In this document: positions 9,133 to 11,831 of the stretch, one piece after another
How the letters are laid out: every line of letters starts with the position of its first letter
How positions within the stretch are numbered: the first letter of the stretch is position 1
From: Methylococcus mesophilus
GTDB taxonomy: Bacteria; Pseudomonadota; Gammaproteobacteria; Methylococcales; Methylococcaceae
Reading direction: 5' to 3'
Length of the DNA stretch: 64,000 nt
NCBI RefSeq assembly: GCF_026247885.1
Contig: NZ_CP110921.1
Coordinates: forward strand, 2,661,001-2,725,000
Program-made: the position numbers and the translations under genes
Notes under the pieces: generated by a model
What the model was told of the DNA's origin: nothing
What the model saw: only the letters and a program-made list of their open reading frames with translations
The model's database searches: none

Positions 9133-11778
9133 CTACTTGACCTTCATGCCGGGCTGGGCGCCTTCATCCGGCGACAGGATGAAGATGTCGCCACCGCCCG
9201 GCCCCGCCGCCAGCACCATGCCTTCCGACAGGCCGAACTTCATCTTGCGCGGCGCCAGGTTGGCGACCATCACAGTCAACCGCCCGATCAGGGTCTCCGG
9301 CGCGTAGGCCGACTTGATACCGGCGAACACCGTGCGGGTCTCGCCGCCCAGGTCCAGCGTCAGCTTCAGCAGCTTGTCCGCGCCCTCGACATGCTCGGCA
9401 TTGGCGATGCGGGCGACGCGCAGGTCGACCTTGGCGAAGTCGTCGATGGAAATCGTCTCGCCTTCCGGGCTTTGTTCCCCTCTCCCTTTGGGAGAGGGGC
9501 CAGGGGTGAGGGCGCTTTCCGCTGACGTCAAAGCCAGCCACACGGCCTCGGCCACAGACTCCGTCTGGGTCAACACCTCGTTGTTCCAGAAGCGCAATAC
9601 CCGGATGCCATGCGCAGCCAAAGTCCTTGTCCGCTCCGTATCGTAGTGCACCTGCTCGGCATGCTGGCTTCCGTCGATCTCGATACAAAGCGCAGCTTCC
9701 GGACAAAAGAAGTCCAGAATGTAGCGGCGGTCCCCCAATGTCAGAGGATGCTGCCGCCGGAATTTTGCATTGGCGATGCGGCGATCTCGCAATAGATTCC
9801 ACATCAGGGCCTCGGCATCGGTCGGATTCTTTCTTAGTTCCCGCGCATGCGCCAACAGGTCTTCGGGCACCGTCAGCGCGCCGTGATGGCCCTCACCCCC
9901 GACCCCTCTCCCAGAGGGAGAGGGGGGAACCGCGGCGTGCTGCTGGTGTTCGGCATGGCGCACCTGGGAATGCGGCTCCGGCGTTACCGCCGAGGCTTGT
10001 AGGCTTTGGCGGTTGGCTTCGACCAGGGCATCGATTTGTTTGGGATCGATGCGGGTCATGAGGTGTTGGTAGGGCTGGATTTCCTCTAGTGGGAAATAAC
10101 TTAGATTACTCCAACTGAATTCCACAGTTGAACCGAGCAACTCTTTTTCGATACGAGCAGTTGTATGGGGCAATATCGGCTTCAGATATGCGCTCAGCAA
10201 GCAAAAGAAACGAATGCTGGCACTGCAAATCATATGTAAGCGGAGTTCTTGAGAAGAGTCTTTGGCTACTTCCCAAGGCTTGGTGTCATTAACGTACTGA
10301 TTTACCCGGTCTGCCAAACGCATGATTTCACGGATGGCTTTACCGTAATCTCTTTCTTCGTAAAGCGCTTCGATCGCTGCCGCCGCTTGCTCCAATTCCT
10401 GGCTAATCGACCACTCCTCTGGCGTAAATTCCTCCCCAGCCAACGGTAAAACCCGGCCTTCAAAGCGCTTGGTTAAAAACCCCGCCGTCCGGCTGGCGAT
10501 ATTGATGTACTTCCCCACCAAATCACTGTTCACCCGGGCGACGAAGTCTTCCAGACTGAGGTCGATGTCCTCCATCGTGCCGTTCAGCTTGCAGGCGTAG
10601 TAATAGCGCAGCCATTCGGGATTGAGACCCTGCTCGAGATAGCTCTGGGCGGTGATGAAAGTGCCGCGCGACTTGGACATTTTCTCGCCGTTCACGGTCA
10701 GGAAGCCGTGGGCGAAGATTCTGGTCGGGGTGCGGAAATCGGAATGTTCCAGCATGGCCGGCCAGAACAGGGCGTGGAAATAGAGGATGTCCTTGCCGAT
10801 GAAATGGTATAGCTCGGCCCCTGAATCCTTTTTCCAGTATTCCGCGAAATCGAGTTTCCCCTCACCCCGGCCCAGTGATTCCAGGCTGTCCTGCCTGGAA
10901 CCCTCCGGGTGGACTTCGTCCATCCAAATCCGCTCCCGACGGACTTGTCCCAAAGGGAGAGGGGGAGTCTTGTCGCACAGGTTCTGGAAACTCCCCATGT
11001 AGCCGATCGGCGCATCCAGCCAGACGTAGAAATACTTGCCCGGTGCGTCGGGGATCTCGAAGCCGAAATACGGCGCATCGCGGGAAATATCCCAGTCGGA
11101 AAGGCCGGCCTCGAACCATTCGTTGAGTTTATTGGCGGCCTCGGTCTGCAGGGTGCCGGAGCGGGTCCAGGCTTTCAGGAACTCGGCGCATTCGCCCAGC
11201 TTGAAGAAGTAATGTACCGACTCCTTGCGCACCGGCGCGGCGCCAGATACCGCGGAGTAGGGGTTGATCAGGTCGGTGGGCGAATAGGTGGTACCGCAGA
11301 CTTCGCAGGAGTCGCCGTACTGGTCCTTGGCGTGGCACTTGGGACATTCGCCCTTGATGAAACGGTCGGGCAGGAACATTTCCTTGACGGGGTCGAAGTA
11401 CTGCTCGATCGCCCGCGATTCGATCAGTCCGCGGTCCTTGAGCCTGCCGTAGATCTCGGCAGCATGAACTCGGGTCTCCTCGGAATGGGTCGAATAGTAG
11501 TTGTCGAACTCGATGTGGAAACCGGTGAAGTCGCGCAGATGCTCGCCGTGGACGCGGGCGATCAGTTCCTCCGGCGTGATCCCCTCCCGCTCGGCCCGCA
11601 GCATGATGGGCGTGCCGTGGGTGTCGTCAGCGCAGACGTAGCGGCAGTCGTGTCCGCGCATCTTCTGGAAGCGAACCCAGATGTCGGTCTGGATGTATTC
11701 GACCAGATGGCCCAGGTGGATCGGGCCGTTGGCGTAGGGAAGAGCGCTGGTGACGAGGATTTTTCGCGGGCTGGTCAT
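9133..11778 (-). CDS. metG: Methionyl-tRNA synthetase with two in-frame repeat-borne insertions, one carrying a DUF559 nuclease-like domain
   Basis: Charges tRNA-Met. The MetG parts are complete: HLGH (HIGH) near residue 22, the zinc-knuckle [22 protein letters not shown] near residue 366, the helical anticodon domain, and the C-terminal EMAP-II/Trbp111-like domain starting [15 protein letters not shown]. At 881 residues it is about 200 longer than E. coli MetG (677). The excess comes from two places. Residues about 272-307 interrupt the catalytic domain between NLCDKT and LDFAEYW. Residues about 618-768 hold a DUF559 (PF04480-type) domain between the anticodon and C-terminal domains. Both inserts have ends of the same palindromic repeat and keep the frame. 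The start ATG 11778 is chosen by homology to other MetG N-termini. An ATG at 11814 would add 12 residues, and neither has a good ribosome binding site. The anticodon region (about 10070-10450) is much poorer in GC than its surroundings. Confidence 0.95.
9477..9512. repeat. Palindromic GC-rich repeat, left end of the DUF559 module
   Basis: CCCCTCTCCC-TTT-GGGAGAGGGG (9477-9499) is a perfect 10-base stem with a 3-base loop, followed by CCAGGGGTGAGGG. It is the inverted counterpart of the copy at 9890-9927. Read in the metG frame it encodes [12 protein letters not shown]. Confidence 0.9.
9890..9927. repeat. Palindromic GC-rich repeat, right end of the DUF559 module
   Basis: CCCTCACCCCCGA followed by the perfect palindrome CCCCTCTCCC-AGA-GGGAGAGGGG. 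It is the reverse complement of the 9477-9512 copy apart from a few bases. In the metG frame it encodes [13 protein letters not shown]. Confidence 0.9.
10859..10966. repeat. Third copy of the repeat family, split by an internal segment, inserted in frame in the metG catalytic domain
   Basis: The outer parts CCCTCACCCCGGCCC (10859-10873) and TCCCAAAGGGAGAGGGGG (about 10949-10965) match the ends of the other two copies. About 75 bases separate them where the others have two to six. That internal part has its own inverted repeat, TTCCAGG (10879-10885) with CCTGGAA (10894-10900). The total of 108 bases equals 36 codons, so the frame is kept. Other MetG proteins join CDK to the F(D/A)EYWKKDS segment by a loop of only a few residues. 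Confidence 0.75.
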
Positions 11779-11831
11779 GGAAACGAAGGCTGGCAAACGG
11801 ATCGAATGCGCCATTATCCCATAATCGACCG

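Follow-up and report, generated by a model that had tools for sequence, protein, structure and literature searches.

A small nuclease domain bounded by palindromic repeats lies in frame within metG, the gene for methionyl-tRNA synthetase, of Methylococcus mesophilus. The gene belongs to a 64,000-nt stretch of contig NZ_CP110921.1 (assembly GCF_026247885.1, positions 2,661,001 to 2,725,000), here called the window, to which all coordinates refer. The source genome consists of one contig of 4.34 Mb, and this metG was the sole full-length copy among the matches listed. The inserted unit consists of a DUF559 domain between two inverted repetitive extragenic palindromes (REPs):

9133..11814, minus strand: metG, methionyl-tRNA synthetase; 893-aa open reading frame (ORF) with the Pfam domains tRNA-synt_1g, anticodon domains and tRNA_bind
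9477..9925, minus strand: whole inserted unit, REP, DUF559, inverted REP, 449 nt (from the inverted repeat and the comparison with congeners)
9889..9925, minus strand: 5' REP of the unit in gene orientation, hairpin CCCCTCTCCCTCTGGGAGAGGGG with tail GGGGGTGAGGG pointing inwards (from the inverted repeat and translation)
9529..9858, minus strand: DUF559 domain, EDxHD-type nuclease, MetG aa 653-762 (from Pfam, conservation, AlphaFold models and fold matches)
9477..9513, minus strand: 3' REP of the unit, inverted (from the inverted repeat and translation)

The nuclease domain of MetG and its palindromic borders

The metG product is 881 aa long if it starts at M13, which lies near the start of its homologues. 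In the Pfam scan, DUF559 (PF04480, E 2.7e-33) spanned aa 654-762; the anticodon domain preceded it and tRNA_bind (aa 798-890) followed. The two arms of the inverted repeat (9477-9513 and 9889-9925) were 37 nt each, 92% complementary and separated by 375 nt. Each arm was a hairpin in itself, CCCCTCTCCC-N3-GGGAGAGGGG, and in gene orientation both halves of the unit carried the hairpin outside and a GGGTGAGGG-type tail inside, directed at the nuclease gene. The minus-strand metG ORF had no stop across either arm, so that 12 residues were translated from the 5' REP and 11 from the 3' REP. A REP of this form was open in five of its six frames, the remaining frame being stopped by the TGA in GGG-TGA-GGG. 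The tether encoded by the REPs was rich in Pro, Gly, Ser and Arg, and its predicted order was low; such flexibility would allow the host enzyme to fold around an independent nuclease domain. The MetG insert is a complete DUF559 domain, bounded by palindromes and in frame. A preliminary description of this DNA had recognized these features, together with the position between the anticodon-binding and C-terminal tRNA-binding domains and the open frame through both repeats, and all of them were confirmed. In the transcript of the insert (window 9472-9930) the two REPs were predicted to pair as a single long stem (z -7.3), which might influence metG translation. A plasmid search with the insert DNA returned short, REP-length matches in three records, and in a plasmid search with metG (402 records) none of the five matches listed covered the insert.

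All six near-invariant residues of the family were kept in the MetG domain (E668, D701, E712, D714, H718 and D725; the conservation count includes one sequence, L173 and L296, twice because it came from two collections), and the signature residues were retained in every fused DUF559 row. The nuclease residues named in the preliminary description, D689, E700 and D702, are D701, E712 and D714 here and are intact; the shift of 12 residues is what a start at M13 would give. AlphaFold models matched the homing endonuclease I-Bth0305I and Vsr, and the EDxHD fold with its active-site residues is predicted to be present in the insert. Partial profile matches between DUF559 and a pentameric toxin subunit in the PDB were weak (E 0.01-1.4) and were taken as chance. 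A DUF559 gene has already been assigned to the EDxHD homing family (PMC9403480), and the properties of EDxHD enzymes have been described (PMC3943268). The domain within MetG was under purifying selection, with a ratio of nonsynonymous to synonymous substitution rates (dN/dS) of 0.16 in the single close pair that was testable.

If the segment were removed before or during translation, by intein-like splicing or by ribosomal bypass, the predicted REP-REP stem might be the structure involved. The frame was open across both junctions, dN/dS was low, and the Pfam scan of MetG showed no intein or splicing (Hint) domain around the nuclease, and the preliminary description had seen no splicing motifs; nor did any intein family appear in the Pfam matches of the fused proteins scanned. 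We regard removal of the segment as hardly credible.

Distribution of the unit in metG

metG was matched in 38 of 38 family genomes, and loci were read for 30 of these, including that of the window. The linker was readable in 28 relatives; one contig stopped before it, and 8 family genomes were unread there. DUF559 was absent from the MetG linker in all five congeners and in 20 of the 23 other readable family genomes, the exceptions being G007, G008 and G019. Outside the family it occupied the same linker in a Burkholderiales metagenome-assembled genome (MAG; L164) and in Betaproteobacteria bacterium BroJett031 (L166), so that MetG carried the insert in six genomes in all, two of them outside the family. 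The family metG loci were read whatever the frame, and the insert was in frame in four of four. The insertion point within the linker and the reading frame of the REP varied among lineages.

The preliminary description had proposed that the segment is a mobile unit. The comparison with relatives supports the view that the DUF559 domain of MetG was inserted and is not a conserved MetG domain. An ancient MetG domain that was repeatedly lost, the opposite possibility, would suit the clustering of five of the six metG DUF559s, a 5-6-residue loop insertion shared by all six and absent from ten other DUF559s in alignment A1, and the saturated divergence described below. However, it would need many restorations of a mostly well-conserved linker in the five congeners and the 20 other relatives, and the insertion points and REP frames differ between lineages. 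We consider such an old fusion very improbable.

The anticodon domain of MetG (aa 440-578, window ~10080-10500) was hypervariable even among congeners that were near-identical on either side, as if repeatedly swapped. Between the window genome (G000) and its congener G010, metG DNA identity was 0.43-0.60 in this domain and 0.87-0.99 over most of the rest. Arrival of the unit by co-conversion, which would leave a homing tract, was ruled out because the congeners diverged mutually in the same region at the protein level (three rows of that comparison had no values); it is a general hypervariable region.

Units in frame in other proteins

Beyond what had been described for this locus, a second REP insertion was found in the same metG, and the unit was found outside the family and outside MetG. 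The insert was delimited by aligning the host in two parts, around the insert, to solved homologues for some hosts and by Pfam order for others. DUF559 inserts lay between residues 956 and 959 of the 9ssp chain in MetH of Stagnimonas aquatica, between residues 90 and 94 of 7ylz in an asparagine-synthetase-like protein, between residues 268 and 270 of 3dod in BioA of a Thiobacillus MAG and between residues 178 and 182 of 5jay in BioF. The last two (L208, L244) are both biotin-synthesis enzymes, from different bacteria. One Rickettsiales genome (AM-377-L16) carried units in frame in an IleRS-like synthetase and in Mfd (L176, L201), with wider alignment gaps. Pfam order showed an insert in ValRS of an Anaerolineales MAG, HrpA of a Sideroxydans MAG and MmeI of a Thermomonas MAG. 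Restriction-modification genes were frequent hosts, and some of their units were out of frame or stopped (L077, L078b, L096). The HsdM units occupied one spot, between YHAWR-like and YRDIPGFCKS-like stretches, in several lineages whose DUF559s did not group together, and in one relative a bare REP lay at the same spot. Similar units, again in frame, in housekeeping proteins of distantly related bacteria suggest a mobile element that has been little described and can add domains to the proteins of its host.

A tree of 111 domains had few columns and many open forks, the named loci in it had been selected by their resemblance to A1, and it omitted 24 class-level loci; the fragments L097 and L183 were dropped from it and from later statistics. 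On this tree the label fused or free required 15 changes, compared with a mean of 24.3 after shuffling, and the host label required two for the six MetG rows and five for the five HsdM rows. Of 51 free units, 24 had no stop in either REP when read in the frame of DUF559, compared with 12 and 15 for the two alternative frames, so in-frame fusion would not be rare from the outset. The bias lay at the 5' REP (35 versus 15 and 18) and not at the 3' REP (33 versus 39 and 35). The outer length of free units was no fixed multiple of three (19/14/18). Pre-adaptation of the unit to the reading frame was rejected.

Bare REPs and insertions lacking a nuclease

The window genome contained 15 exact CCCTCTCCC-N-GGGAGAGGG palindromes and none of the reversed control pattern. 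Two of the 15 frame the MetG DUF559 domain, which together with the control excludes chance. Eight of the 15 lay in frame within recognizable genes, namely MetG (2), RecC (2), LeuRS, a RAMP protein, GemA and HsdM, and one more adjoined an HsdR domain. REPs of the window form occurred in 28 of the 38 family genomes and the reversed pattern in none.

A second insertion in metG has REP ends and no nuclease:

10855..10968, minus strand: REP-ended mini-insertion in metG, 38 codons, aa 283-320, absent in five of five congeners

Three relatives (L008, L009, L017) had clear REPs at this position, and a further three (L029, L031, L034) had short, unusual stretches there. In leuS, a REP was in frame in three of six congeners and missing from the other three (the window genome's copy is L003 1501-1521; L156-L162). 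In a 651-aa HsdM frame of G004 (L106) there were four in-frame REP-type insertions, one of them at the DUF559 spot of other HsdMs. Empty relatives were compared for metG and leuS, and at both metG sites and in leuS a palindromic in-frame insertion was absent from close homologues.

These insertions bear on the possibility that the nuclease was recruited to MetG, Mfd, HsdM and other proteins for a cellular task such as regulation or anti-phage defence. Constraint on the MetG domain in the one pair, recurrence of the insert in one MetG linker in six genomes and, in several, at shared positions in HsdM and HsdS, and the frequent company of restriction-modification genes are what such a fusion might produce. 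In contrast, hosts such as MetH, BioA, BioF and HrpA are functionally unrelated, bare REPs enter metG at aa 283, leuS and HsdM without any nuclease, and close relatives manage without the MetG insert. Recruitment for a host function appears improbable to us.

Association of DUF559 genes with REPs

Among 33 strong DUF559 matches in the family, 21 were flanked on each side, at no more than 350 nt, by the exact 9-base motif, and several of the remaining ones had other palindromes, such as CCCCCCTTTGAAAAAGGGGGG. Loci with these other palindromes were L088, L092 and L093-L095 (CCCCCCTTTGAAAAAGGGGGG, CCCCCCTGATAAGGGGGG), with CCCCCCTGATAAGGGGGG on the 5' side only; this suggests that several REP classes share the DUF559 enzyme family. 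The flanks of DUF559 genes, the gene family that the survey covered, were tested by scoring the inverted repeat between two 170-nt flanks, leaving out loci with less than 60 nt of flank. The 80 named loci were the best of a longer list, chosen for likeness to A1, and L173 and L296 were both counted. The highest score among 93 control pairs, drawn from 1.2 kb away, was 11, and 65 of 79 named and 20 of 33 family loci scored above it. At a further 50 loci, 29 exceeded the distant-window maximum of 12 (48 controls): 14 of 30 that were best by E-value, 7 of 9 others and 8 of 11 long-frame picks, of which one came from the class search. In many phyla, DUF559 genes often have inverted palindromes on either side.

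The type of palindrome tends to follow the DUF559 lineage, as judged from sequence similarity. In 86 loci with a score of at least 18 and a REP no longer than 80 nt, REP similarity tracked DUF559 similarity. With shared ancestry still included, the Mantel r was 0.293 (none of 999 permutations was as high, maximum 0.228), and r was 0.299 with the difference in guanine-cytosine content removed (499 permutations, maximum 0.213). Different DUF559s of one genome can bear different REPs.

REPs could instead be spread by a REP-associated tyrosine transposase (RAYT) or by host repair, with DUF559 as cargo between two REPs and with no role in movement. REPs elsewhere are linked to RAYTs (PMC2817692). 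In the window genome bare REPs outnumber DUF559s (15 palindromes versus 2), and 7 of the 28 REP-bearing family genomes, some of them REP-rich, have no DUF559 match. However, six genomes of the genus had 23 Y1_Tnp matches, and in the 20 loci that were read no window-type REP lay at the gene. One locus had a REP at a distance of about 1.3 kb and another a lone tail motif at about 1.5 kb, and RAYT was rejected as the mobilizer. The DUF559 family is REP-bounded in many phyla with a REP type that tends to track the nuclease, and the signature residues are intact in all fused rows. A passive passenger is rather unlikely in our judgement.

Discussion

We consider it probable that the 449-nt segment is a copy of a widespread REP-bounded EDxHD-nuclease element that works in a manner resembling homing or REP transposition. 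The architecture, the REP association, the co-variation of REP and nuclease, the insertion into genes, the open frame and the constraint in one pair were all found in the data. We infer from them that the nuclease itself drives the spread of REPs and units. Such an element would comprise two inverted REPs, with the hairpin outside and the GGGTGAGGG-type tail usually inwards, around one small DUF559 gene. The nuclease would be the likely partner of its own REP type and may recognize the REP hairpin and cut or nick it; repair or strand transfer would then place a copy of the unit, or of a bare REP, elsewhere. Insertion need not sense the reading frame: insertions in essential genes are found in linkers and in frame, probably because selection retains those, and this pattern fits the earlier suggestion that an essential gene can tolerate an insert landing in a linker if it brings no stop codon. 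Once fused to an essential protein, the element may be guarded against deletion.

Several observations weigh against this interpretation. No target duplication, which the preliminary description had proposed to look for, was evident by eye at the metG site, where the flanks have diverged. Five of the six metG DUF559s formed one clade, itself weakly supported (SH-aLRT, the Shimodaira-Hasegawa-like approximate likelihood ratio test, 91), and synonymous sites were saturated between the window genome and G007 or G008. Because the non-metG hosts were identified through their long open frames, an insertion that broke the frame of a housekeeping gene would have escaped notice, and the starred branches of the tree force only two changes between fused and free. 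When flanks were paired across loci, only 24 of 79 named and 13 of 33 family loci exceeded the 99th percentile, because the REPs of different loci are alike; among the best-scoring phylum-wide loci (398 genomes) only 14 of 30 passed the inverted-repeat test, and the Mantel correlation may partly reflect common descent. Seven of the 28 REP-bearing family genomes, some of them draft assemblies, had no DUF559 at E<=0.001 and three more had weak matches only; these ten include G016 (101 palindromes), G030 (40) and G037 (22). REPs may outlive their enzyme, or another agent spreads them. Recent duplication was seen in one of 43 intragenomic DUF559 pairs, and the rest were old paralogues; the pairs came from six genomes, with sampling incomplete in three. 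DUF559 thus seldom multiplies within a genome, whereas REPs do multiply. The shared block of the recent pair started near the 5' REP and continued through further repeats, and so has no clean element ends.

The unit resembles REP/RAYT systems in its many short palindromes, in the inverted pair that encloses a nuclease gene, mostly with one copy of the gene per type, and in a REP type that tends to follow the enzyme; RAYT transposases likewise partner their REP types. It differs in that the enzyme belongs to PF04480 with an EDxHD/Vsr fold and not to the Y1 transposases (PF01797), the tail is GGGTGAGGG-like, and units enter coding genes. The predicted fold and active-site residues are those of EDxHD homing endonucleases such as I-Bth0305I, but here there is no intron or intein, no extended DNA-binding region was seen, the gene is bounded by REPs, and the host protein retains the nuclease as a domain. 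Unlike Vsr-like endonucleases, such as VsrA of Caulobacter (PMC12907096), the unit showed no repair context, is REP-bounded and lies in frame in hosts. The homing strategy envisaged in the preliminary description is favoured by the fold match, whereas "intein-like" applies only loosely because MetG, unlike inteins, has no splicing domain. Likewise, the insertion that it implied is supported by the empty linkers of relatives and by in-frame units in other phyla, and nuclease-driven mobility would be a further step. Nothing in the literature searched backed its statement that DUF559 genes flanked in this way are already known to occur as free units: we found no description of REP-bounded DUF559 units in open-access literature on DUF559, and since subscription journals lay outside the search, priority is uncertain.

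Rickettsia palindromic elements are similar by description, being palindromic repeats in frame in protein-coding genes (PMC3733652, PMC10969869); the accessible parts of these papers mention no nuclease gene inside them, whereas the units here include a nuclease domain and occur in many phyla. The Rickettsiales genome AM-377-L16, with units in an IleRS-like synthetase and in Mfd, is a possible link to these gene-less elements.

A broader proposal, which we put forward tentatively, is that DUF559/EDxHD nucleases mobilize GGGTGAGGG-tailed REPs as autonomous elements of ~450 bp in many phyla, which enter coding genes, including essential ones, and become translated domains on flexible tethers; selection acting on the host protein would then protect the parasite from loss. 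If the nuclease is the mobilizer, a common class of REPs would gain a testable enzyme, and the Rickettsia palindromic elements, like other in-frame repeats that contain no gene, would have a candidate ancestor. The unit in metG would then be a selfish element sheltering behind an essential gene, and would account for odd Pro/Ser/Gly-rich inserts in annotated proteins. It would also illustrate how essential proteins can acquire new domains with no splicing involved, and the bare REP, the mini-element, the nuclease unit and the broken copies would be living stages of that route.
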